Origin: a virus
IMG/VR virus record: IMGVR_UViG_3300021963_000304
Coordinates: 1 to 38,211 of that record
Direction: 5' to 3' (one strand)
Length of the DNA: 38,211 bases
Of this stretch, positions 1 through 12,481 are shown piece by piece; the first letter of the stretch is position 1; every line of letters begins with the position of its first letter. A program made the translations under genes and the position numbers. The notes under the pieces were generated by a model. The model did not search any database, was not told the origin of the DNA, and worked only from the letters and a program-made list of their open reading frames with translations.

Positions 1-252
1 TCTAGTGGAAGCTCTGGTAGCAGTGGTTCTAGTGGAAGCTCTGGTAGCAGTGGTACAAGTGGAACTTCTGGTAGAAGTGGCTCTAGCGGCAGTTCAGGTA
101 GCAGCGGCTCTAGTGGAAGCTCTGGTAGCAGTGGTTCTAGTGGAAGCTCTGGTAGCAGTGGTACAAGTGGAACTTCTGGTAGAAGTGGCTCTAGCGGCAG
201 TTCAGGTAGCAGCGGCTCTAGTGGAAGCTCTGGTAGCAGTGGTTCTAGTGGA
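1..252 (+). repeat. 108-bp perfect tandem repeat encoding a Gly-X-Y stalk
   Basis: Bases 1-108 and 109-216 are identical, and 217-252 repeats the first 36 bases. Each unit encodes 12 Gly-X-Y triplets (GSS, GTS and one GRS) of the fibre stalk. Identity at the DNA level, including third codon positions, indicates recent duplication rather than protein-level conservation alone. Confidence 0.95.
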
Positions 253-3200
253 ACTTCAGGAACTAGTGGTTTGTTAACTTTGACTGGAACTACAAATAAT
301 GGTATTATAACTTTAAATGGTACTGCACCAAGTGGTATTGTAGAAGCTGGTTTTACTTATGATGCTGGTGGTACAGGATATTTAAGTGGTAAATTTGGAA
401 TAAATTTCTCTGGAGCCACTGATGTCTTTGAGGTGCATGGTACAGGAGGTAAATTGTTTAGCGTTACAGATGATCTAAGTGATTCTCTTATGTCTGTAAA
501 TGCTATTGCTGGTTTGCCTATATTTGAAGTATTCGCTAATAATACAATAATTGCAGGACAATATAATAGTGGAGACTTCACAATAAGTGGTAATAATGTT
601 GGTATTGGTGTGAAAATACCAGCGTATAAATTGGATGTAAGTGGAAATATCAGATTTACAGGGTTATCGACAAGTGTCAGTAATAATATTTTAGTAATAA
701 ATTCTGATGGAACAGTAGGAACAAAAATAAATGCTTCTAGTTCAGGAACTTCAGGTTCAAGTGGTTCATCTGGCTCTTCTGGAACAAGTGGTTCATCTGG
801 CTCTTCTGGAACAAGTGGTTCATCTGGCTCTTCTGGAACAAGTGGTTCATCTGGCTCTTCTGGAACAAGTGGTTCATCTGGCTCTTCTGGAACAAGTGGT
901 TCATCTGGCTCTTCTGGAACAAGTGGTTCATCTGGCACAAGCGTCAGCGTTTCAGGAACAAATAATACATTAGTAAAATTCACTTCTTCTTCTACAATTG
1001 GTGATAGTAATACTATAGAATCAAATAATGGCATAAGTGTTAATGGAGTTACTGTTGGTAGAGGTTCAGGAAATATTTTAACAAATACGGTTGTTGGCGG
1101 TAGTTCTTCTTTCGCTGCAAATTTAACTGGTATTGCAAATACTGTTTTTGGAAATGCATCTATGACTAGTAATACTACAGGTACTTATCATAGTGCATTT
1201 GGTTATAAAACATTAACAGCTAGTACAGGTAATTTAGGAAATTGTGCTTTTGGTAGTAATGCATTACAATTAAATGCTATTAGTTATAATAGCGCTTTTG
1301 GTTATAAAGCTTTACAACAAAATACTACTGGAAGAAATATTGCAGTAGGCGCTTTTACGCTAGTATATAATACGACTGGATCTGAAAATATTGCGGTAGG
1401 TTATTTGTCTTTATTTACTAATACTACTGGAGGAAATAATACTGCGGTTGGCAATTCGACTTTATACTTTAATACTACTGGTTCTAGAAACAATGCGTTT
1501 GGATTTCAAGCTCTGTTTAATAATACCACGGATAATATTAATGCTTTTGGTTATAAAGCATTAACTGCTAATACAACAGGTGCGTATAATAGCGCATTTG
1601 GCCATCAAGCATTACAATATAATACAATTGGTTCAGAAAATAGCGCATTTGGTTTTAGAGCTTTGAGATACAATACAACTGGTATACAAAATACTGCTGT
1701 TGGAAGGCAATCTTTACAAAGTAATACTACAGGTAGTTTTAATACGGCTTTTGGTTATAGATCTTTATTCGTTAACACATTTGGCGTATATAATACTGCT
1801 GTTGGTCGTACATCTTTATATAATAATACAACTGGTAAAAATAACAGTGTGTTCGGATATAGCGCTTTGTATCAAAATGTTGTTGGTTCTAATAATAGTG
1901 CATTTGGTTATAGATCGTTGTATGCTAATTTAGCAAATAGTAACAATGCGTTTGGATTTAAATCATTGACCGCGAATACTACAGGTGGTGCTAATAATGC
2001 TTTTGGTAATTTTGCTTTAGCTGCAAATACAACAGGCGTTAGAAACAATGCGTTTGGATATAATGCTTTAAATGCTAACACAATTGGTATAAATAACAAT
2101 GCATTTGGTCATGAATCATTAAAAGCAAATACAACCGGCAGCGCAAATGCTGCATTTGGTGCATATTCTCTAAGAGTTAATACTACTGGTGTTAATAACA
2201 TTGCTATGGGTGTTCAAGCTTTGACATCAAATGTCGTTGGTATAAATAATACAGCAGTAGGTCATCAGGCTTTGTATAGCAATGTTACTGATAGAAATAG
2301 CGCATTTGGTTATAGAGCATTGTATGCAAACACTACTGGTTATAGAAACGTTGCTGTAGGTGATTTAGCTGCAAGGTCAAATACAAGTGGCACATTTAAT
2401 GTTACTGTAGGTGTTGCTTCGTTATATGAAAATACAACTGGTAAAAGAAACAGTGTATTTGGTACGTACGCGATGTTCTTGAATGTTACTGGTAGTTATA
2501 ATAGTGCGTTCGGATTTTATGCTTTGGGTAAAAATTTAGCAAATAATAATAGTGCATTTGGCTATAGATCTTTATTTAATAATACAACTGGTACAAATAA
2601 TAGTGCGTTTGGTTATAAATCTTTGTTTACAAATACAACTGGTTATAACAATACCGCCGTTAGTTATCATACATTAACATTAAATACAGTTGGTTATAAT
2701 AATGTCGCACTTGGTATACAAGCTTTATATAGTAATATATCAGGTGCAAGAAATAATGCAGTAGGCGTTAATTCGTTATTAAACAATACAGGAGGAAGCG
2801 ATAATAATGCTTTTGGTTATTACGCTCTAAAAGCCAACACAACAGGTTATAATAATTCCGCCTTCGGAAAAACATCATTAACCTCAAATACAGTTGGAGT
2901 AAATAATAGTGCATTCGGAACGTATGCATTAAAAAATAATACAACTAGTGCAAACAATAGCGCATTTGGTTATGCCGCTTTATCATCTAATACCACAAGC
3001 AATAATAGTGCATTTGGTTACAAAGCTTTATTTGTAAATACTACAGGTACTAATAATAATGCATTTGGCAATCAATCGTTAGTAGCAAGTGTTTCAGGTA
3101 ATAATAATAATGCATTTGGTTCTTATGCTTTATCTTCTAATGTTGGTTCAAATAATAATGCTTTTGGGAACAGATCTTTACAATCTAACGCGCTTGGTAA

Positions 3201-4491
3201 TAGAAACTCTGCGTTTGGTGGATATACATTGCAAACAAATACTATAGGTACTGGTAATAGCGCATTTGGACATGCAGCTTTAAATGCTAATATTATTGGC
3301 AATAATAATAATGCATTTGGCAGAAGCGCTTTAAGAAATAATACCACAAATAATAATAATGCTTTCGGTTATTATGCTTTAAGAAACAATACCACTGGTA
3401 TAGGTAATAGTGCTTTTGGTCACAACGCATTAGTAAGTAATACAATAGGTGTTAATAATAGTGCATTTGGTTACCAAGCTTTATATAGTAATACTACTGC
3501 TATTAGAAGCTCTGCATTTGGTAACTATTCCTTAAGAAATTCAACGGGTGTAGAAAATACGGGTATTGGTTGTGATATAGGTTATGATATTACAAGCGGT
3601 AGAACAAATACATTACTTGGATTTAATACTGGTCGTGGCATCACCACTGGCAACTATAACACAATTCTCGGCGCAAACGTCACAGGATTAAGCGCCACAA
3701 TTGCCAATAACATTATAATTGCTGACGGCCAAGGTAATAGAAGAATTAATGTTGATAGTAGTGGTTATGTTGGCATAAATACAAATACTCCATCTGGATA
3801 TTTGAATGTAAAAACGAGTAATATAGCTGGTAGAGAAGTTGTGATGGGTGATACTGCTGCTGTTAGCGGCGTATTTAGAGCTAGATTGGATGACAATAGT
3901 CTTTCTTTCATACAGTTGGAAAATAGAGATATTGCTGCAACAACAAATCATGGTGTTGGAATTAGGTTTAATTTAGGAACAAACGTTTCAAATAATGCTC
4001 TTAATGCTGGCGGTATTTATTTAGGAAAAGAACAACAATGGACGGCCACCGCATCAACACAAAATTCATATTTAATATTTAACACATCATTAAACGCTAC
4101 AGCAAGTGAAAAAGTTAGAATAACATCTGGTGGTAATGTTGGTATAAACACAACCACTCCAAGTACCACACTAGAAGTCGTCGGCACAATTACTTGTACA
4201 ACAATGATTGAAACATCAAGTGTTGTCGCCAAAACAAATGTCAAAAAACTAAATAGCCAAACCGCCAAACTATCCAAGCTTGTACCTGTATCTTTCAATT
4301 ATAAAAAAGACAACAAACGCAGTCTAGGATTGATTGCGGAAGAAGTCGCCCAAGTTTACCCAGAATTAGTTGAGTATGAAAATGGTCGTCCTTTAGGTGT
4401 AAACTATTCGAAGCTTACTGCTGTATTAATTAGTACAGTAAATGAGTTGGCCGCTGAAGTTGCAGAATTAAAGAAACAATTAAATAAGTAA
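1..4491 (+). CDS. Giant tail fibre, collagen-like stalk and S74 chaperone tip (5' truncated)
   Basis: The frame is open from base 1 with no ATG in the first 270 bases and collagen-like repeats running off the edge, so the true start lies outside the window; an apparent TTG start at 271 is not credible. Order seen: Gly-Ser-Ser/Gly-Thr-Ser triplets (1-270), a beta-rich head with a NVGIG..P.YKLDVSG motif (about 598-645), a second Gly-X-Y stalk (about 733-945), about 45 copies of a 17-residue unit of the type N(S/T)AFGYxALxxNTTG (1138-3570), two more VGIN..TP motifs, and a C-terminal S74-type intramolecular chaperone (about 4190-4488) containing SLGLIAEEVAQVYPELV and ending in a short coiled coil. 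In this family the S74 domain trimerises and folds the fibre, then usually cleaves itself off. It probably acts as a receptor-binding side or tip fibre. Stop is TAA. Confidence 0.9.
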   Translation, partial: SSGSSGSSGSSGSSGSSGTSGTSGRSGSSGSSGSSGSSGSSGSSGSSGSSGSSGTSGTSGRSGSSGSSGSSGSSGSSGSSGSSGTSGTSGLLTLTGTTNNGIITLNGTAPSGIVEAGFTYDAGGTGYLSGKFGINFSGATDVFEVHGTGGKLFSVTDDLSDSLMSVNAIAGLPIFEVFANNTIIAGQYNSGDFTISGNNVGIGVKIPAYKLDVSGNIRFTGLSTSVSNNILVINSDGTVGTKINASSSGTSGSSGSSGSSGTSGSSGSSGTSGSSGSSGTSGSSGSSGTSGSSGSSGTSGSSGSSGTSGSSGTSVSVSGTNNTLVKFTSSSTIGDSNTIESNNGISVNGVTVGRGSGNILTNTVVGGSSSFAANLTGIANTVFGNASMTSNTTGTYHSAFGYKTLTASTGNLGNCAFGSNALQLNAISYNSAFGYKALQQNTTGRNIAVGAFTLVYNTTGSENIAVGYLSLFTNTTGGNNTAVGNSTLYFNTTGSRNNAFGFQALFNNTTDNINAFGYKALTANTTGAYNSAFGHQALQYNTIGSENSAFGFRALRYNTTGIQNTAVGRQSLQSNTTGSFNTAFGYRSLFVNTFGVYNTAVGRTSLYNNTTGKNNSVFGYSALYQNVVGSNNSAFGYRSLYANLANSNNAFGFKSLTANTTGGANNAFGNFALAANTTGVRNNAFGYNALNANTIGINNNAFGHESLKANTTGSANAAFGAYSLRVNTTGVNNIAMGVQALTSNVVGINNTAVGHQALYSNVTDRNSAFGYRALYANTTGYRNVAVGDLAARSNTSGTFNVTVGVASLYENTTGKRNSVFGTYAMFLNVTGSYNSAFGFYALGKNLANNNSAFGYRSLFNNTTGTNNSAFGYKSLFTNTTGYNNTAVSYHTLTLNTVGYNNVALGIQALYSNISGARNNAVGVNSLLNNTGGSDNNAFGYYALKANTTGYNNSAFGKTSLTSNTVGVNNSAFGTYALKNNTTSANNSAFGYAALSSNTTSNNSAFGYKALFVNTTGTNNNAFGNQSLVASVSGNNNNAFGSYALSSNVGSNNNAFGNRSLQSNALGNRNSAFGGYTLQTNTIGTGNSAFGHAALNANIIGNNNNAFGRSALRNNTTNNNNAFGYYALRNNTTGIGNSAFGHNALVSNTIGVNNSAFGYQALYSNTTAIRSSAFGNYSLRNSTGVENTGIGCDIGYDITSGRTNTLLGFNTGRGITTGNYNTILGANVTGLSATIANNIIIADGQGNRRINVDSSGYVGINTNTPSGYLNVKTSNIAGREVVMGDTAAVSGVFRARLDDNSLSFIQLENRDIAATTNHGVGIRFNLGTNVSNNALNAGGIYLGKEQQWTATASTQNSYLIFNTSLNATASEKVRITSGGNVGINTTTPSTTLEVVGTITCTTMIETSSVVAKTNVKKLNSQTAKLSKLVPVSFNYKKDNKRSLGLIAEEVAQVYPELVEYENGRPLGVNYSKLTAVLISTVNELAAEVAELKKQLNK
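760..936 (+). repeat. 27-bp perfect tandem repeat, 6 copies plus a partial
   Basis: Six identical 27-bp units run from 760 to 921, followed by a partial copy to about 936. Each encodes SGSSGSSGT, so length changes of one unit keep the reading frame. The array lies inside the fibre gene and forms its second collagen-like stalk; it is coding sequence, not a CRISPR array. Confidence 0.95.
1138..3570 (+). repeat. About 45 degenerate 51-bp repeats encoding a beta-helical shaft
   Basis: The encoded protein repeats a roughly 17-residue unit, consensus N-(S/T)-A-(F/V)-G-Y-x-(A/S)-L-x-x-N-T-T-G-x-x, occasionally 16 residues. DNA copies have diverged although the protein pattern persists. Similar NTAVG/NSAFG repeats occur in Hep/Hag or YadA-head-like regions of trimeric adhesins and phage fibres, where they wind into a left-handed trimeric beta-roll. 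The fold is inferred from this resemblance. Confidence 0.85.
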
Positions 4492-4501
4492 CATAATATA
4501 A

Positions 4502-5014
4502 ATTGGTGTCGGTGCGGGTACGTCGTATCCAATTGGAGGTTCAAATAATAGTTTATTTGGTTATAATTCACAAGCTAGTTCAGCCAATGTAAACAATGAA
4601 ATTACACTTGGAAATAGCAGTGTTGCCGCTTTACGTTGTCAAGTAACATCAATTACGTCTTTATCAGATTTTAGAGATAAAGCTGACATTAATAATATTC
4701 AAGTTGGTTTATCATTTATTGAAAAATTGCGCCCTGTAACATTTAAATAGGATAAGCGTGAGTGGTATACTAATGGTAATAGAGATGGCAGTAAAAAAGA
4801 TAATATAATTCAAGTTGGATTCATAGCTCAAGAATTAAAAACTCTACAAGAAGAAACTGGCACTGATTATCTAAAATTAGTATACGAATCTAATCCAAAT
4901 AAATTAGAAGCGACCCCAGCTAATTTATTAATTCCATTAATCAAAGCTGTCCAAGAATTAAATGAAAAAGTAAAAACATTAGAAAATAGAGTGCGAATAT
5001 TAGAGAATAAATAA
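4502..5014 (+). pseudogene. Relic of a second S74-type fibre tip with an in-frame amber codon
   Basis: The frame after TAA 4499-4501 reads a fibre tip: NNSLFGYNSQASS and NEITLGNSSVAALRCQV, then the S74 signature SLSDFRDKADI, GLSFIEKLRPVTFK, TAG (4748-4750), DKREWY, VGFIAQELK and a C-terminal coiled coil ending at TAA 5012-5014. In intact S74 domains the residue after VTFK is usually Trp, so the TAG most simply arose from TGG. There is no start codon, and the frame differs from the intact fibre gene ending 10 bases upstream. It looks like the old tip displaced when a new 3' module was joined to the fibre gene. Expression by readthrough is possible but unsupported. Confidence 0.85.
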
Positions 5015-5021
5015 GTTTTAA

Positions 5022-5651
5022 ATGTCTTATTCTTACGACTATTATTCTCAAATCTGTTTGCTCTTAAGAGATAAAGGTTTTTATCCTCAAAATATATTAG
5101 ATATCGGCGCAAGTGTCTGTCAAACGGCAGACGTTATGCGCCAAATCTGGCCTGTGGCAAACATATTATTATTCGAAGGAAATGCTGAGTGCGAAAAGTT
5201 ATACCAAAAACAACTTTATGATTATCAAATAAAATTGCTTGGTAAAATCAACGGTACAACTAAATTCTATAAAACAAAATGGAGTCCTATTTGTTCTGGC
5301 AATTCTATATACAAAGAAAACTCCTCAACTTATAATGAAGAAAACTTGATAGTCGAAGAGTTGCCGATTTATAAACTAGATGATTGCGTTAATGGCGTTT
5401 TCGATCTAATAAAAATTGATACTCAAGGTAGTGAATTAGATATTATCAATGGCGGATTGCGAACTTTCTCAAATGCCAAAGTAGTTATCGCAGAAGTGTC
5501 TTTAACTAATTACAATGAAGGCGGCTGCACGAAGCAACAGATTATTGATAAAATGATTAGTCTAAATTTTGATCTTGTGTCTATAATAGAATCAGTAGTA
5601 AATGAAAATAATGAACTAATCGCTGAAAGTTTATTATTTATTAGACCTTAA
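5022..5651 (+). CDS. FkbM-type SAM-dependent methyltransferase
   Basis: The 209-residue protein has the SAM-binding motif I ILDIGAS at residues 25-31, an acidic strand end (LLFEGN, about 48-53), and the FkbM-family signature DLIKIDTQGSELDIINGG at about 127-144. FkbM-type enzymes transfer methyl groups to hydroxyls of sugars or polyketides; in phages they often accompany glycosyltransferases. The substrate here is unknown. The gene starts 7 bases after the S74 relic, without a recognisable Shine-Dalgarno site, and converges on the glycosyltransferase gene; both stops use the palindrome TTAA at 5648-5651. A role in methylating a glycan made by the adjacent transferases is inferred from position only. 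Confidence 0.8.
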   Translation: MSYSYDYYSQICLLLRDKGFYPQNILDIGASVCQTADVMRQIWPVANILLFEGNAECEKLYQKQLYDYQIKLLGKINGTTKFYKTKWSPICSGNSIYKENSSTYNEENLIVEELPIYKLDDCVNGVFDLIKIDTQGSELDIINGGLRTFSNAKVVIAEVSLTNYNEGGCTKQQIIDKMISLNFDLVSIIESVVNENNELIAESLLFIRP

Positions 5652-6613
5652 AGATCTAAAATCTTCTTCCACCATTTGATAACCATTTGCGGACGAAAGT
5701 TTCTTGGGCTTTGTTGATTTGAAGCGTAGTTCTTAAAATAGTTTATATAATTATGCATGTCAGAAGTCAAACTATTATTATTTATTAATTCTGGCAACGA
5801 TCCTAGACCATTGAGTCCATAAACATATGGTGTTGTTTGCAAAATATCAGCAAGAACAACGCTAATTCCAAAAGTTTCGGGCATATTATTTACATAAAAC
5901 ATACCTTTGCATTTTGCCATAAGCTCAACGACTTCTTTAAAATTTAACGTACCAAGATAATTAACATTATAGTTTTCGTCGCTGATATTATTGCTTGGAT
6001 TATCATATCCCGGCAAACATACATTTAAAACATCGGTGCCAGATAATATTTTTTCGTCTTTTAAATATTTCCACATCTGCAAAGTATATGGATATCCTTT
6101 CATCAAGCTACTGGCATATATATAATTTTTTTTGTTTTGTGGAATTGGATAGTCGTATACCCAATCAGGAATCATAAAATAAATAATATGCTTGTTCCAA
6201 TGAGCAGGAAACAAACCGTCTTGAAATTTACTGAGAGTAATTAAAGATAATTTCTTTTCCTCAAATAGTTTGTAGAATTTTAGATTGTGAACGCCATTAA
6301 GATCGGTTGCCCACATGAAAGCTTTTTTATGGGCGATCTTTGGGATGTCGCTGTATCTATGAATTATTAAGTTCTTGCATTTTACCTTATATTTATTTAC
6401 TAAAACATTTGGTAAATACAATACATTATTTATGTATGTTTGTCTTTCGCAGTTGTTGAAGCAAATAACTTTATATCCTTCTTTCGCCAACTCTTCAAGA
6501 AGAAGAATAGCTTGAAATTCGCTGCCGCCCATGCCTTTTTCGTGCATGGTGTTGCCAGTATAAGGCATTCCGATACTGTCAAATAAAATTATATCTGCAA
6601 AAATTTCGTTCAT
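5648..6613 (-). CDS. GT-B fold glycosyltransferase (GT4-like)
   Basis: 321 residues. The N-terminal Rossmann-like half carries GMGGSE at residues 27-32, the glycine-rich sugar-acceptor loop of GT4-like enzymes. The C-terminal half has MPETFGIS (244-251) followed by VLADILQ and GLGSLPELI (269-277), matching the nucleotide-sugar binding region with its E-x7-E-like pattern. It probably transfers a sugar from a nucleotide donor in the cytoplasm. The ATG overlaps the TGA of the upstream GT-A gene (ATGA, 6610-6613), so the two are translationally coupled and likely act on the same glycan. Targets could be the Ser/Thr-rich fibre stalks, other virion proteins, or host surface polysaccharide; the sequence does not decide. 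Confidence 0.82.
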   Translation of the reverse strand: MNEIFADIILFDSIGMPYTGNTMHEKGMGGSEFQAILLLEELAKEGYKVICFNNCERQTYINNVLYLPNVLVNKYKVKCKNLIIHRYSDIPKIAHKKAFMWATDLNGVHNLKFYKLFEEKKLSLITLSKFQDGLFPAHWNKHIIYFMIPDWVYDYPIPQNKKNYIYASSLMKGYPYTLQMWKYLKDEKILSGTDVLNVCLPGYDNPSNNISDENYNVNYLGTLNFKEVVELMAKCKGMFYVNNMPETFGISVVLADILQTTPYVYGLNGLGSLPELINNNSLTSDMHNYINYFKNYASNQQSPRNFRPQMVIKWWKKILDL

Positions 6614-7374
6614 ACGAGAACTTTGAAATCGTCATCTGGATCGCTCTTTGCAAAGTATTTAGAAATGTCTGTTACTGGTTGTGGATTGAAAGTTTCTTGT
6701 TTCTTGAAAGAATTAATCCATTTACCTACGTCACCGACAAAAGTCTTCGTGCCTGTGTGCGAGCAGGTAATCTTTGTGTCAAGGTAAACGCTGTTTCCAA
6801 GATTGCGCCACTTTTTGCACATATAAATGTCTTCGCTGATAAGATCGCCGTCTTCGCATACGACTTCGAATACCATGCGTGTGTCGCCCTTTTCAGATGT
6901 GTAAGGTTTTGAGACTTCCCAAAGAGCTTCCATAGCCTTACGCGAGATCTTCATGAAGCCGCAGCCCAATCCAGCAACTTCCAAAAGACCATCTTTGTCG
7001 ATGCTTAGATTTAGTTTGCTGTTATCTTTGTCAAGAGCCTTTACTACATAAAGCTCTTCATTGTCGCTCTTCTTTCTATAGCTGCCGCCAATCAAATCTT
7101 TGTCGCTATTTACTAGCTTATAAAAGTCTAATGGATTCCAACCGACATCACCATCAATAAAAAACAATACATCAATATCGTTACTGTAAGCTAGTTTAAA
7201 TAAATCATTTCGGGCGCGTTGAATAAGAGAATCGTAACAAATAAATAATGGATATACTTCTACATTATTCTTTTCTGCTAAAGATAGAGTGTTTAGAAGT
7301 GAGTCGATGTAATAAACATCAAGTTTGCCGTCGTATGATGGAGTTGCGATTAAAACTTTCTTTTTATCAGCCAT
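6610..7374 (-). CDS. GT-A fold glycosyltransferase (GT2-like)
   Basis: 254 residues. KVLIATPSYDG opens the nucleotide-binding fold; the metal-binding DxD motif is DGD at 74-76 (LFFIDGDVGW), and GLGCGFMKISRKAM (135-148) followed by SEDIYMCKKW resembles the acceptor-side region of GT2-like enzymes common in phages. It would add a sugar from a UDP- or GDP-sugar. It is the first gene of the two-gene minus-strand glycosyltransferase unit. Its ATG follows directly after a terminator-like hairpin (7381-7407): the GAGG ribosome-binding site is in the hairpin's descending arm and the T-tract is the spacer, which suggests regulated translation or transcription. Confidence 0.82.
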   Translation of the reverse strand: MADKKKVLIATPSYDGKLDVYYIDSLLNTLSLAEKNNVEVYPLFICYDSLIQRARNDLFKLAYSNDIDVLFFIDGDVGWNPLDFYKLVNSDKDLIGGSYRKKSDNEELYVVKALDKDNSKLNLSIDKDGLLEVAGLGCGFMKISRKAMEALWEVSKPYTSEKGDTRMVFEVVCEDGDLISEDIYMCKKWRNLGNSVYLDTKITCSHTGTKTFVGDVGKWINSFKKQETFNPQPVTDISKYFAKSDPDDDFKVLV

Positions 7375-7407
7375 AAAAAAACCTCAAGAACGATATGTCC
7401 TTGAGGT
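7375..7407 (-). terminator. Rho-independent terminator overlapping the GT-A ribosome-binding site
   Basis: Bases 7381-7388 and 7400-7407 form a perfect 8-bp inverted repeat (ACCTCAAG / CTTGAGGT) with an 11-base loop. On the minus strand the stem is followed by seven T residues and then the ATG of the GT-A gene at 7374. It ends the minus-strand transcript of the 93-residue gene. GAGG in the 3' arm lies 7 bases from the ATG, so the same hairpin would hide the ribosome-binding site on readthrough RNA. Confidence 0.8.
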
Positions 7408-7442
7408 ATTTTATGTTTTTTATTTGTAGTTTTCTACTTGTA

Positions 7443-7724
7443 TTATCGGGTTAAAGCAGGTGGATATTCACCAGTAACAAGAGTAACTACAGCAGAAGCT
7501 AGTTGCGCGTCAGTCCATTGACCAGCCTGATCGTAAGTGTCGCCAGACCAAACGGTATACCAATTGTGAGCGTAAGGGTTGGTAGATATTTTTACCAAGC
7601 TCTTTACGGTCTTGCCAACTGGATCATCAGTTGTTTGGAGGATTTCGATTTGACTGCTGTTGGCAGCTTGTTGAATTTCTACAGCACTTGGTAGATTAAT
7701 AACAGGAAATACTGGGTCGCTCAT
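7443..7724 (-). CDS. Small protein of unknown function (93 aa)
   Basis: Not recognised. The 93-residue product has no signal peptide, membrane segment or cysteine. It is rich in Val, Thr, Ala and Gln, with an aromatic patch NPYAHNWYTVWSGDTY in the middle and a proline-containing C-terminus. It lies 41 bases downstream of the sulfotransferase on the same strand and ends just before a terminator, so the two probably share a transcript. A GTGTAA sequence lies 21 bases upstream of the ATG. It could be a small virion protein or partner of the sulfotransferase, but nothing in the sequence proves it. Protein-like composition and tight packing support it as a real gene. Confidence 0.6.
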   Translation of the reverse strand: MSDPVFPVINLPSAVEIQQAANSSQIEILQTTDDPVGKTVKSLVKISTNPYAHNWYTVWSGDTYDQAGQWTDAQLASAVVTLVTGEYPPALTR

Positions 7725-7765
7725 ATTTTATATATATTTTTACACTATTTTTATTATTTTAGAAA

Positions 7766-8590
7766 TCAATAATCGTAACTAAATGCTTTATAAAACCAAG
7801 GAAATTTATTGTAAATATTATCGCAGTTTTGTTTTCCAAGGATTTCTATGTAATCATTAGGTACTGGCTTGATTACTTTTTGAATAGTATGATCACCAAA
7901 TGGAATATGCATACGATCATCTTCAAAGGTTTTTTGCTCTACATTATTAAAATCATGTTGATAAAATGGCAACTCTAAATATTCATATACTCGTTGCATT
8001 TCTCTTTGAGGATTGGCGGCGAAGTTCTCAAACTTAATAAATAAACATTTTTTACTTAATTTACGCATAATTGTGTCGTATAATACATCCATGCTTACAG
8101 CAAGTGGCGGCGCTTGCATTAAAAAGTAATCTATTCTTTTATCTACTGTTGTGTTGCGAAGTTCGTTCCAATTCTGAAGACCAGCATCTATGTTTTGGTG
8201 TTGTCGCCACTTTTTTTCCATGCTTGCGACTACTGCTCGCAGATCGCGAACCATAACAATTACCTTTGGATCTGGATAATACCAGTTTAAAAAGTCGTAA
8301 GTAACACTCCAGCCTCTGCTTTTGTCAATAACATATTTCTTATCGGTGATGGCGTTGAAGTATGCGAACATACCTTCTTTGCAAAGAGCTTTAAACGCTG
8401 GTTCAACAACATTGATATCTTGAGCCTTGAATTCTATATTTGTAGAATATATATTTCTGGCATTAAGAAAGATTTCGATCAACCCACTTGTTGGTGTGGC
8501 GTAAAAATCAGGATTTTGCGCCAGCACATTCTGTAACAATGTTGAACCGCTGCGAGGTAGTGAACATTGAAAAAATATCTTTTCAACCAT
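7766..8590 (-). CDS. PAPS-dependent sulfotransferase
   Basis: I take the start at 8590 (MVEKIFFQ, 274 aa). The frame extends 24 codons further to 8662, but that part would overlap the divergent gene and lacks family resemblance. The PAPS 5'-phosphosulfate loop is CSLPRSGSTL at residues 9-18. The 3'-phosphate-binding strand is VIVMVRDLRAVVAS at 110-123, with the conserved Arg115 and Ser123. The family transfers sulfate from PAPS to hydroxyls or amines on sugars, proteins or small molecules; the acceptor is not evident. Its divergent neighbour encodes an APS kinase-like enzyme that could make the donor, and two glycosyltransferases lie downstream. The acceptor might be a virion glycan or a host surface polysaccharide. 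Stop is TGA. Confidence 0.85.
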   Translation of the reverse strand: MVEKIFFQCSLPRSGSTLLQNVLAQNPDFYATPTSGLIEIFLNARNIYSTNIEFKAQDINVVEPAFKALCKEGMFAYFNAITDKKYVIDKSRGWSVTYDFLNWYYPDPKVIVMVRDLRAVVASMEKKWRQHQNIDAGLQNWNELRNTTVDKRIDYFLMQAPPLAVSMDVLYDTIMRKLSKKCLFIKFENFAANPQREMQRVYEYLELPFYQHDFNNVEQKTFEDDRMHIPFGDHTIQKVIKPVPNDYIEILGKQNCDNIYNKFPWFYKAFSYDY

Positions 8591-8600
8591 ACCATATATT
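8591..8600. promoter_or_regulatory. 10-bp gap between divergent sulfotransferase and APS kinase start codons
   Basis: The ten bases accatatatt separate two divergent ATGs. The gap contains TATATT on the plus strand and AATATATGG on the minus strand, close to the A/T leaders seen before other genes here. There is no room for ordinary promoters plus leaders, so promoters must lie inside the opposing genes or the transcripts are nearly leaderless. Confidence 0.45.
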
Positions 8601-9056
8601 ATGCCAATTGGTTCGTTTTTAAAGGTGTTAATTATGGGTTTACCGGGATCTGGTAAAACCACATTAGCGGCAGATTTGTTTTATCTTTTAAGTAGTAATT
8701 ATAAGTGCCATTGGTTAAATGCAGATAAAGTTCGTGAACAATTCAATGACTGGGACTTCAGCGAAGCTGGTCGTGAGCGCCAAGCCAAAAGAATGAAAGA
8801 TCTGGCTGATATGCACGGCCAATATAATGAAATAATTATTTGTGATTTCGTGTGTCCATTACAAAAAACAAGAGATCAATTTAATCCTGATTATATAATT
8901 TTCATGAATACTATTGATGAATCAAGATATGAAGATACGAACAAGGTATTCGAACCGCCGAAAAAGTTTGATGTCGAAGTCAAAAGCAAGAACAGCAACT
9001 ATTATTCTAAAATGATCTATAACGAAATAGTTCATAAGATCAATAAAAAAGTGTAA
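8601..9056 (+). CDS. Adenylylsulfate (APS) kinase-like P-loop kinase
   Basis: 151 residues, slightly shorter than typical CysC (about 170-200). The Walker A motif GLPGSGKTT is at 13-21, preceded by strand FLKVLIM, so the start at 8601 is needed rather than the later ATG at 8634. APS-kinase features follow: WLNADKVR (38-45, D-x-x-R), DFSEAGRERQAKR (52-64), a CDFVCPLQKTR segment matching the SPyrxxR region, and SRYEDTNKVFEPP, resembling the Lys/Thr-rich lid. The expected reaction is APS + ATP to PAPS + ADP, feeding the divergent sulfotransferase. No ATP sulfurylase is present, so APS would come from the host. A related P-loop nucleotide kinase is possible. Confidence 0.75.
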   Translation: MPIGSFLKVLIMGLPGSGKTTLAADLFYLLSSNYKCHWLNADKVREQFNDWDFSEAGRERQAKRMKDLADMHGQYNEIIICDFVCPLQKTRDQFNPDYIIFMNTIDESRYEDTNKVFEPPKKFDVEVKSKNSNYYSKMIYNEIVHKINKKV

Positions 9057-9065
9057 GTATAATAT

Positions 9066-9578
9066 ATGGTAGCTTATAGTGTACATGATTTAGCTGATGA
9101 AATATTCGGAAACGAATTTGAGTATGACAGTGGATATGCTCAATTTTATTATATTTCAGGTTGGCTTGCCAATAACGTTGGTATGTTGAATACAAAAATA
9201 TATAGTCAATTTTCTGTAGAAGGAGCTAATTTCGTTCCAACTGGGACTTTTCAACAAGAAGAAAGAGCTATATATAAGCAAATGTATCTTTATGAGTTTT
9301 ATACAAAAAAGACTCGTCAGGTTTTGCGCGGAGTTGATTCAAGTGTTGATTTCGTTACTTTGCGCGAAGGAGATACAATGATTACTCGTACAAATAAAAA
9401 CGAATTAGCTAAAACGTATCGTGGATTAGCTAACGATGCTAGAGATGAGATGGAAAAGTTGGTTACGTCTTATAATATTTATCGTGCAGCACCAGTGCAA
9501 GTTGCTGGTGAAGATGGTTCACCAATATACACTGGCTCTGGATATTTTTATTATCCTTATGGATATGGAAATCCTTAA
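9066..9578 (+). CDS. Probable head-tail connector or neck protein
   Basis: 170 residues, largely helical by composition, beginning YSVHDLADEIFGNEF and containing the helix-rich stretches EERAIYKQMYLYEFYTKK and KNELAKTYRGLANDARDEMEK. The C-terminus is a Gly/Tyr/Pro-rich tail (YFYYPYGYGNP). Small helical proteins at this place, next to stopper, gp10-like and tail-terminator genes, are commonly head-tail connectors of the gp6/gp15 type; I see no decisive motif, so this rests on size, helix content and context. It starts 9 bases after the APS kinase gene with TATAAT directly before the ATG and no Shine-Dalgarno sequence. A strong terminator follows at 9591-9614. Confidence 0.45.
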   Translation: MVAYSVHDLADEIFGNEFEYDSGYAQFYYISGWLANNVGMLNTKIYSQFSVEGANFVPTGTFQQEERAIYKQMYLYEFYTKKTRQVLRGVDSSVDFVTLREGDTMITRTNKNELAKTYRGLANDARDEMEKLVTSYNIYRAAPVQVAGEDGSPIYTGSGYFYYPYGYGNP

Positions 9579-9583
9579 TAGAT

Positions 9584-9620
9584 AAAAAAGAACCCCAGTC
9601 TTTCGACTGGGGTTTTTATT
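9584..9620. terminator. Bidirectional Rho-independent terminator
   Basis: AACCCCAGTC (9591-9600), loop TTTC, GACTGGGGTT (9605-9614): a perfect 10-bp GC-rich stem. It is flanked by AAAAAAG on the left and TTTATTTTA on the right, so it can stop transcription from both the plus-strand gene ending at 9578 and the minus-strand tail-tube gene ending at 9634. Confidence 0.92.
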
Positions 9621-9633
9621 TTATTCTATCTTA

Positions 9634-10968
9634 TTAAAGTTTTCCAGTGCCTAGCTTGAAGAAGCCAGATGTAATACTATCAAGATAATTTTGATAACTA
9701 CCAGACATAAATAAGCCAGCAGTTGTATCATTTGCACCACCGATTTGAACTGAATAAGTTAGATCGACAGTTTGATTATCTCCAAGATTTTCAGAATATG
9801 TTTCAGACTGCAATAGTGCGCTCTTAATGTCGTATCTAATTTTATTATTGCTAGAACTATCTTTCAATGTTATGGATAGATCGTTATTTTCAGTAATTAA
9901 AGCATCAAATAGATTTTTATCTTGTAGTTCTGAAACAATAGCGCTAATTGTAACATCCATATTAATAGGAACATCTATGACTCTTGCGAAACCAAATGTA
10001 TTTCCAAGTCTTTGTAAAATTGTTCTGCTAAGAGGAAGAGTAAAGCTAAATGATTGGATATGAGCGTCTGATAGACTTGTCATTCCACGACTTGTTCCTA
10101 GAGAAAGAACTATATCTCCAGGTCTTAAAGCGCTGACTGTGCTAACACCAGTTGTAAATCCAGTAAAATTAACTCCAGGAGCAGATCCAATTGCTCCTGA
10201 GTAAGCTCTGCTATAATCTAATTTATAAGCAGTACCAATACTTGTGAGCTTAGTAGCTGGTTGAGCAAAAAGATCAATTGCTGGACTATTTCCAGTTAGC
10301 GTGGTTATATTAGCTCCTACAGAGCTTAATGCTGGTGCGCTACCAGTTGTTAAATTAACTGGAACGTCAATTGCATCTGATTTGATATTAAAAGCCTCAA
10401 CTGTAATAGAGGCAGTTGGAATAGCTCCAACACTAGCTTCAAAACTATATTCACTTATAAATCCATTTCCAATTCCAACAATTGTTGAACTAGGAGCTAA
10501 AGTTCCTCCAACAACGTCTTCGCCTTCATCTACAGTTAGAATATAATAATTATTTCCTTGTAGATCACCTAATAGTCCAGAAATAGCTTGAGCGCCATTT
10601 ACAATATTTGTATCAGTAACTCCTGTAATATTAAATCCAAGTAGTCTTTCATTATATCCATCAGTTACATAGTAACTGAAATCAAGTCCTACTGTTGGAG
10701 CTTCCATAACAATAGAATCGATACGAGCTAGTTTACCGAATTCATTGATATCTTGTCTATTAATTGTAAAATTGAAATTACAATTTTGAATGCGATCCAT
10801 TTTCTTCAAAAGAGAAATACCGGATGCTAGTGAACCTGTGCTAACTGGGGAGAAAGGAGATGCGGAAGCTGCTGTACCAGCAGCATTTACACCGCTAACT
10901 TGAACTCCAGTTGAGCTAGGAGCGATAAATAAAGCTTGACTTTGGTAAATTACACGATTTCTTGCCAT
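9634..10968 (-). CDS. Major tail (tube) protein
   Basis: 444 residues, beta-rich, with no membrane segment. Features of long-tail tube proteins include the early QDINEFGKLARID segment, where tube proteins join beta strands, repeated strand-turn patterns, and a C-terminal SENLGDNQTVDLTYSVQIGG that fits the closing beta-sheet. The middle (about residues 195-290) is low-complexity Ser/Thr/Ala/Gly and may be a surface-exposed insertion. It is the last gene of the minus-strand neck operon, just downstream of the terminator-like protein, as is usual for the tail tube, and is followed by a strong terminator, fitting high expression. The 65 bases upstream are very AT-rich. No enzymatic motif is present. 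Confidence 0.75.
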   Translation of the reverse strand: MARNRVIYQSQALFIAPSSTGVQVSGVNAAGTAASASPFSPVSTGSLASGISLLKKMDRIQNCNFNFTINRQDINEFGKLARIDSIVMEAPTVGLDFSYYVTDGYNERLLGFNITGVTDTNIVNGAQAISGLLGDLQGNNYYILTVDEGEDVVGGTLAPSSTIVGIGNGFISEYSFEASVGAIPTASITVEAFNIKSDAIDVPVNLTTGSAPALSSVGANITTLTGNSPAIDLFAQPATKLTSIGTAYKLDYSRAYSGAIGSAPGVNFTGFTTGVSTVSALRPGDIVLSLGTSRGMTSLSDAHIQSFSFTLPLSRTILQRLGNTFGFARVIDVPINMDVTISAIVSELQDKNLFDALITENNDLSITLKDSSSNNKIRYDIKSALLQSETYSENLGDNQTVDLTYSVQIGGANDTTAGLFMSGSYQNYLDSITSGFFKLGTGKL

Positions 10969-11033
10969 ATGTTTTTATTTGTTTGTTTTTAAAATGTTAA
11001 TATTTTTTACAGCGGTTGTTATTATTTGTGAAA
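10969..11033 (-). promoter_or_regulatory. AT-rich leader of the major tail gene, possible promoter
   Basis: This is the only sizeable gap in the minus-strand neck operon and precedes its most highly needed product. On the minus strand it reads CTGTAAAAAATATTAAC followed by an A-rich leader into ATATGG, resembling the GTGTAA...ATATGG arrangement upstream of other genes here. Promoter activity is inferred. Confidence 0.3.
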
Positions 11034-11894
11034 TTATAATCTAGGATATCGATAAGCTTTAACTTCAAAATCTAAAAATCCTATGTGTAATATAGGATTC
11101 AATTCTTTCAAAACGCTATCTCTTATTTTTGAAGTTTCTACATGTGATATAAAAAGCGTTTCGGAGTTATAAGCATTGCTTACAGAATTATAATTATATC
11201 CAGTAGGATATACGCCTGTTTTTATTTCATTAAATTCTCCAAGAGGATGCGCCGTCATTGGTATAAGACTAAAAATTTCATTATAAGAATCACCAAAAAC
11301 ACTTAATACGCCATCTAATTGATATAAATTTTCGCAAAAAGCTACAACCTTGATAATACATTTAGTTTCATCTTCGCCGCCAAATGCAAAAGCTGTATTA
11401 TGAGCGGTTTCTAAAGAAGCGAATATACAAGGTGTTACAGGATTATATGGAGCTATGCCAGTTTCAGTTACTGTAAATCTACTATTGTTGATATATTTAC
11501 CTTCAATAATTAAATTGTCTTCAGGTTGATCTGTTACATAGCTATTAACTTCTTTTACCGAATAAGTGCCAGATATATTTAAGTTAGTGGAAACTCCGCT
11601 ATTAAATATAATACGCCCATTATCAAAATCAATTGCCATTCCGCTTGTTCCAGTTGGTCTAAAAGCTCCATCAATTGTAAATCCGCTAGGGATAGTTGCT
11701 CCAGTTATGCTTTTATCATATATCCACTGTTTAAATGGAGAGCTGTAAGCGACTTTTCCATTACCTAATCTGAAATCAGGATTGCTATATAATTTTGTTG
11801 TATATGTTTTATAAGCGTCTCCTTTGGTCATTAAAAAATTATCGAACCATAAAAAGAAACTATTTACTACATTGTGTGAAAAAGTGGGTTTCAT
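11034..11894 (-). CDS. Putative tail terminator or completion protein
   Basis: 286 residues. I do not recognise a specific family. The N-terminus (FSHNVVNSFFLWFDNFLMTKG) is hydrophobic-aromatic; the rest is beta-rich with Gly/Asn turns. The C-terminal part, ETLFISHVETSKIRDSVLKELNPILHIGFLDFEVKAYRYPRL region, has a helix then strands, as in tail-terminator folds. Position supports this: it follows the gp10-like gene (ATGA overlap at 11891-11894) and precedes the tail tube, where the terminator lies in many siphoviruses. It is longer than typical terminators (about 130 aa), so an extra domain or another neck role is possible. Confidence 0.45.
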   Translation of the reverse strand: MKPTFSHNVVNSFFLWFDNFLMTKGDAYKTYTTKLYSNPDFRLGNGKVAYSSPFKQWIYDKSITGATIPSGFTIDGAFRPTGTSGMAIDFDNGRIIFNSGVSTNLNISGTYSVKEVNSYVTDQPEDNLIIEGKYINNSRFTVTETGIAPYNPVTPCIFASLETAHNTAFAFGGEDETKCIIKVVAFCENLYQLDGVLSVFGDSYNEIFSLIPMTAHPLGEFNEIKTGVYPTGYNYNSVSNAYNSETLFISHVETSKIRDSVLKELNPILHIGFLDFEVKAYRYPRL

Positions 11895-12481
11895 ATGTTT
11901 AATTTATTTAACTGTTTTAATTCTTTATTGAATCTATTTATTAAATCTGATATGTATTTAGAATTTTTGAACATAACTCCTGTTCTGACTTGTTCTATTG
12001 TGGTTTGAATACCTAAACCAGAGCGACTGTTCTTAGTTTTTTTTAAATAATATCCAAGACCAGAAATTCCTGTTTCTATTCCTCTTGCCCAGCTTCTTCC
12101 AACTGCCCAAGGCATAGGTGTTATTTCGAATATTTGAGCCGCAGTTGGTATATCAAAAATTACTGTTGCATCGACAGATTTATTATTATATATAATTCTG
12201 TAATTTGATTTTTTTAATAACTGTTCAATAGGTCTGATTGGATCAGTGCCTTCATCAAATCCGATAAAAGAATATAAATTAGTTATACCGCCAAGAGTTC
12301 CTGATATGTTTGTTGCGCTTATTCCGCCTTGGATTTCTTGCGTAATTGGGTGATTCATGAATTCGTCAATGAATTCATCTTTTATTTTATTAAATTCTTG
12401 ATCAATTATTCTGTTTATTTCTTTTTGATATTCTTTATCAGCTTGCAAATCTTGAAACATTTTTATCCATTCGGGATTCAT
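11891..12481 (-). CDS. HK97-gp10-like neck/tail completion protein
   Basis: 196 residues. The N-terminal part is a charged helix (KEYQKEINRIIDQEFNKIKDEF) followed by NHPITQEIQGG, NISGTLGGITNLYSFIGFDEG and, near the C-terminus, MPWAVGRSWARGIETGISGLGYYLKK and a RSGLGIQ segment. This helix plus Gly-rich sheet layout and the PW..GRSW element are what I associate with gp10-like neck proteins that sit between connector and tail. It lies directly after the stopper-like gene and before the terminator-like gene in the same operon. Moderate confidence without a profile search. Confidence 0.55.
   Translation of the reverse strand: MNPEWIKMFQDLQADKEYQKEINRIIDQEFNKIKDEFIDEFMNHPITQEIQGGISATNISGTLGGITNLYSFIGFDEGTDPIRPIEQLLKKSNYRIIYNNKSVDATVIFDIPTAAQIFEITPMPWAVGRSWARGIETGISGLGYYLKKTKNSRSGLGIQTTIEQVRTGVMFKNSKYISDLINRFNKELKQLNKLNI

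Follow-up and report, generated by a model that had tools for sequence, protein, structure and literature searches.

The S74 tip is a trimerizing, self-cleaving chaperone domain. In the Peptidase_S74 or endosialidase intramolecular chaperone, a serine and a lysine are spaced as S578 and K583 (PMC3742443). Tail-fiber gene mosaicism has long been known from P2, Mu, lambda and other phages (Haggard-Ljungquist 1992, Sandmeier 1994, both cited in PMC3945230), and the Alteromonas phages A5 and V22 exchange a module made up of fiber and chaperone (PMC10579305). Outside phages, the orphan C-terminal fragments of Rhs in Salmonella Typhimurium LT2 are toxin/immunity pairs that have 522 bp at 95% identity in common with the main gene, and their re-fusion has been shown (PMC3967940). 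No title listed in literature searches describes a displaced S74 tip, a result that concerns titles and does not imply absence from print.

We analyzed an IMG/VR virus contig of 38,211 bases over its full length (the window), in which a live tail-fiber gene is followed by a second, broken S74 tip, here called the relic. Both tips match the S74 family (PF13884), and in both a Ser stands five residues ahead of a Lys, the spacing seen in the chaperone described above; unlike the family, the relic cannot be made as it is, being out of frame, without a usable start and interrupted by a stop, and it therefore does not qualify as an expressed C-terminal fiber end. It resembles the Rhs orphans in that a 3' module of a long surface protein with repeats is displaced to a site downstream of the main gene, where it retains some upstream coding sequence and has no start, and the same module occurs in frame on full-length relatives (loci L056, L051-L053 and L001-L004). 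Unlike those orphans, the relic has an overlap of only 27 nt at 81%, an internal stop and no known re-fusion; the long near-identical overlap and intact reading frame that accompany re-fusion of the Rhs type are absent from it. As in the mosaicism of P2, Mu and lambda, the phages concerned exchange distal fiber parts, and as with A5 and V22, marine phages pass host-recognition modules with a chaperone-like end from one to another. The A5/V22 chaperone is a separate protein, unlike the window tips, and PMC10579305 nowhere uses the word "remnant".

Layout of the live fiber and the relic tip

The features around the relic are as follows.

1-4491, plus strand: live tail-fiber gene, 5' end off the record, stop TAA at 4489-4491
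3766-3795, plus strand: first hinge, YVGINTNTPS, upstream of a variable passenger
4135-4164, plus strand: second hinge, NVGINTTTPS, near the start of the live tip (tip A)
4216-4488, plus strand: S74 end of the live tip A; SSVVAK (4216-4233) holds its Ser and Lys, five residues apart
4498-4502, no strand assigned: join; tip-A homology stops at 4498 and the relic frame starts at 4502
4502-5011, plus strand: relic tip, consisting of a shaft end, a complete S74 domain and a coiled-coil end; stop TAA at 5012-5014, no start
4664-4681, plus strand: SDFRDK, holding the preserved Ser and Lys of the relic, five residues apart
4748-4750, plus strand: in-frame TAG codon, at a position that is Trp in 8/8 in-frame tips compared
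5022-5651, plus strand: methyltransferase-like gene (phrog_8156), 7 nt after the relic

The live fiber runs from collagen-like SSG repeats through shaft repeats of the NNxAFGY type and the variable passenger to tip A with its S74 domain. It matches Collagen and Peptidase_S74 in Pfam, and its shaft matches phrog_23837, phrog_6002 and phrog_4636. The true start is not the listed TTG at 271, the frame being open to base 1 of the record; the missing fiber beginning (MANFDITV...) is carried by L024, a record that reaches further upstream and matches window 4-4446 at 99.1% identity. L024 stops at window 4446, 52 nt short of the join, and its last 900 bases show 0 differences. A six-frame search placed the live S74 domain at 4228-4371 (44.4 bits to PF13884, no internal stop), and among PDB entries the live end matches 6f45, a long tail fiber distal subunit, at E 0.00018 and 7dc3, a myelin regulatory factor, at E 0.0031.

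In alignments with relatives, tip A has the character of a module. Over the stretch from 4107-4129 to 4498 its identity with L026 and L028 is 87.5-91.9%, against 66-74% for the shaft upstream of it. Tip A begins at a hinge, GNVGI.TT.PST.LEVVGT, of which a second copy lies 369 bases upstream (3766 vs 4135), and the stretch between the two copies is different in each of five fibers aligned. This passenger between near-identical hinges (VGINT.TPS) looks like a slot for swapping the receptor-binding part. L030 has, near its position 6001, a single hinge and no passenger, as expected from crossover between hinge copies. The long inverted repeats of an invertible fiber cassette were not found within 3400-5700, where the inverted pairs number six, at 15-19 nt and 74-87% identity.

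Behind tip A, the relic frame (4502-5014, plus strand) comprises 170 codons with one internal TAG, right behind VTFK, and a TAA terminator. The first-pass annotation had described it as a second S74 tip that is out of frame, lacks a start, belongs to a subtype other than the live one and has TAG in place of the conserved Trp, and our results agree on each point. With X at the stop, the relic scores 39.4 bits against Peptidase_S74 (PF13884), above the curated cut-off of 22 and so within the family by score; its halves, scored separately, reach 20.2 and 16.8 bits, both below 22. The six-frame search of the whole record also detected it, independently, with "1 TAG" within the match and a score of 41.2 bits. 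Its frame differs from that of the live fiber, the codon before it is TAA (4499-4501), and no in-frame ATG, GTG or TTG precedes the TAG except the TTG of codon 76, within the S74 domain. The best PHROG matches of its halves are phrog_23837 and phrog_4636, against phrog_33119 and phrog_28992 for the live S74 end; in the PDB nothing credible matched the relic (best E 0.09). Judged by the S74 scores and by matches over 170/170 residues to in-frame homologues, a chance origin is excluded. The longest stretch found in common with the shaft covers 27 nt (4537-4563); it aligns with shaft 3447-3473 at 81% identity and in matching codon register.

Relatives bearing either tip

Relatives were gathered by scans with three window proteins, namely the methyltransferase (12 loci), tip A (15 loci) and the product of a glycosyltransferase-like gene at 6610-7374 (19 loci), several of these loci being the same contigs. 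The relic tip type occurs at full length in four of the 19 loci of the last scan (L051, L052, L053 and L056). A search for relatives with this tip fused in frame had been proposed at the outset, and L056 is one: here a relic-type tip with the Trp intact, 73.5% identical over 170/170 residues, ends an 875-codon open frame with collagen-like repeats, a shaft head as in the window fiber and a similar shaft. The two fibers have a common non-repeat shaft head (SVSGTNNTLVKFTSSSTIG in the window, SVSISGTNNTIVKFTSASTIG in L056) and are 48-50% identical over about 600 residues. The methyltransferase gene starts 6 nt behind the tip stop in L056, and 7 nt behind the relic in the window. Because L056 combines this shaft with a relic-type tip and the methyltransferase gene, the relic appears to sit at the former tip site of its own fiber. 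Together with the presence of tip A in other loci (L025-L030), this supports the original proposal of a tip replacement that left the old tip downstream.

The relic and the L056 tip differ at 133/507 nt (about 26% in tip DNA), with dS of 0.93 and dN of 0.21, and L056 is not the parent. In L051-L053 the relic tip type ends fibers elsewhere in the genome, and in L001-L004 in-frame relic-type tips are 50-52% identical. A search with the relic protein matched 31 phage records, all below 60% identity, and the genome collection yielded 11 distant relic matches at 26-39% identity; megablast of window 1-12000 against isolated phages found no direct DNA relatives. By eye, from translations, a DNA-ligase-like gene in L052 (10624-13064) seems to be split by an intein-like insertion together with other open frames, and in L053 it is in one piece.

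Other DNA lies behind tip A in L025-L030. In 6/6 loci inspected, another gene starts directly behind tip A and marks the beginning of what we call block B, which opens with a large gene (MAILNHGST...) 10-26 nt past the tip A stop and has smaller genes at its end. We take block B to be fiber-like, judging by its YYDSNDTAYY repeats. Tip A and the methyltransferase gene are 8.2-9.9 kb apart in five contigs holding both, and about 10.5 kb apart in a sixth (L038/L020), whose edge shows 17 residues of tip A; in the window nothing but the 0.5-kb relic separates the two. L013 has at 3-5867 one 1954-codon open frame with shaft repeats at its start and a block-B-type end, tip A being gone, which may represent an in-frame fusion of the first fiber with block B. 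Relic sequence was detected at E <= 1e-4 in 0/27 of the loci L012-L038. In L022, 44 nt (2966-3009) that lie ahead of the methyltransferase gene and behind block-B genes resemble the last codons and stop of the relic tip type, with p = 0.006 vs the relic and 0.015 vs L056 and none of seven other relatives below 0.3, values uncorrected for eight sequences and two references; as a sign of a non-chance relic remnant the stretch is suggestive only.

Homology by blastn with L026 and L028 stops at 4498, 7 nt beyond the live fiber stop, and with the relatives compared it is regained inside the methyltransferase gene, at 5027, except in L022, where it starts again at 4997. The methyltransferase gene begins ATGTCT in the window, L022 and L056, and ATGGGT or ATGAGT in ten other relatives, so that the relic and this gene start look inherited together. 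The downstream flank is nearer to the block-B phages L012 and L023 (92%) than to L056, and the lineage is therefore a mosaic. The methyltransferase gene is itself mosaic, its best-matching relative switching along its first 300 bases (window 5022-5300).

Age and rarity of the broken tip

The first reading had also held that the relic is otherwise intact and the event recent. Forty-eight columns are invariant in eight in-frame tips (L056, L051-L053 and L001-L004), and the relic departs at one of them, Trp to TAG; because it violates the invariant columns at the stop alone, inactivation looks recent. The four nearest tips give 110 invariant columns, from which the relic departs at 10, the stop counted. 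Without the stop this is 9/109, vs 5/105, 2/102, 1/101 and 6/106 in leave-one-out controls of the four nearest tips, so that mild relaxation before the stop is possible. Eight of the nine non-stop departures fall in the shaft part of the relic, which is variable anyway. When the relic was randomly substituted in a neutral simulation, about 10 changes in 510 nt were the maximum that fits (P = 0.05 at 10). Since more neutral changes would usually hit an invariant residue or make a stop, most of the divergence would have arisen while the relic worked, in support of a recent event.

Broken tips are rare among the relatives covered. In 21 related records there are 11 S74 matches, one apiece, none of them (0/11) with an internal stop; the window record has two, one broken. 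From viral_contigs the best 80 of 237 tip relatives were kept, and a full tip was defined as one of over 150 bits. These 80 loci, among which are near-copies out of separate samples and four contigs counted above, hold 86 full tips, 0/86 with an internal stop, and the window relic is the one broken match in 240. Successive intact S74 ends of the relic tip type, in separate open frames, number three in L123 (3912-7018) and L129 (3294-6407) and two in L093 and L132.

Origin of the join and its meaning

We consider it likely that the relic is the former C-terminal tip of the same fiber, disabled by insertion of tip A between shaft and relic. A tip-A-bearing relative and a phage with a layout like that of L056 would have recombined during co-infection, the left crossover falling in homologous fiber sequence, either the shaft or the repeated NVGI.T..PS hinge, and the right end just past the donor stop, inside the recipient fiber and with no visible homology. 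Because the right end would have landed inside the recipient fiber, the recipient tip would have been stranded without a start. As an S74 tip is its own chaperone, the new tip would have supplied the chaperone and made the old one dispensable; released from selection, the old tip would have gained one nonsense codon so far.

The same arrangement would result in two steps if tip A arrived with the 8-10 kb block B and the block was later deleted, the relic again being the displaced tip and the join marking the later deletion. Tip A is directly followed by block B in the 6/6 loci inspected and the join lies within that spacer, the closest relatives of the downstream flank (L012 and L023) carry block B, and L022, with its block-B genes and 44-nt relic-like stretch, would be an older case. 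However, the recent death of the relic would squeeze gain and loss of block B into a short time, and relic sequence is found in none of the 10 block-B relatives inspected besides L022 (0/27 in L012-L038). Both routes explain the place of the join equally well and are indistinguishable; the recency of the relic's death mildly favors the direct swap, and we regard a passage through block B as possible but doubtful. A different history, in which the relic is the end of a separate second fiber gene downstream whose remainder was deleted, would fit the second large fiber-like gene that other relatives have at that site and the several successive intact S74 fibers borne by some phages (L123, L129, L093 and L132). 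Yet the second gene ends in another tip type in L013-L015, L018 and L020-L023, and L056 bears the relic tip type on its first fiber, adjoining the methyltransferase gene, and we judge such an origin unlikely. Deletion of a second fiber as the full account, suggested by the 8-10 kb block in L012-L030, was overturned by L056.

A single assembled record is the source of both the join and the TAG; viral_contigs, which may leave out near-identical records, yielded 0 exact matches to the join and 0 to the TAG site. An assembly artefact, with the tip-A end of one strain joined to the fiber end of another or with the TAG as a base error, would fit a join seen in this record alone, next to which the near-identical L024 stops 52 nt before, as assemblies do where strains diverge. 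It is quite improbable given that no long common sequence at the join that could mislead an assembler was seen among relatives, and even with the TAG as a base error, the relic would lack a start and be out of frame. The first-pass annotation had further suggested that the tip may still be recruited by recombination, as a living reserve kept for return onto the shaft in the manner open to Rhs orphan tips. Although the relic retains shaft sequence, with the 27-nt stretch 81% identical to the shaft, this stretch is short and diverged, the TAG would travel along, an alternate join turned up in no record, and 0/80 other loci with the relic tip type hold a spare broken copy; the suggestion finds no support and is very improbable. 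A related notion, which we mention with very little confidence, is that the fibers of this group may change tips by insertion and that discarded tips pile up beside the methyltransferase gene as a short-lived store for shaft-repeat recombination. Such a store would be a phage counterpart of the Rhs orphan tips, two stages of decay being represented by the full relic of the window and by the 44-nt stretch in L022.

Read as a displaced tip of its own fiber, the relic makes the window a clear case of known fiber mosaicism and alters no general view. Such mosaicism is usually inferred from finished genomes, whereas here the replaced part is still in place, one nonsense codon old. With the old tip on site and L056 showing the prior state, the direction of the exchange (old vs new tip), its right-hand joint and a rough clock can be read, the joint lying a few bases at most from the stop codon of the new tip. 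The arrangement suggests that S74 ends travel with the part they fold.
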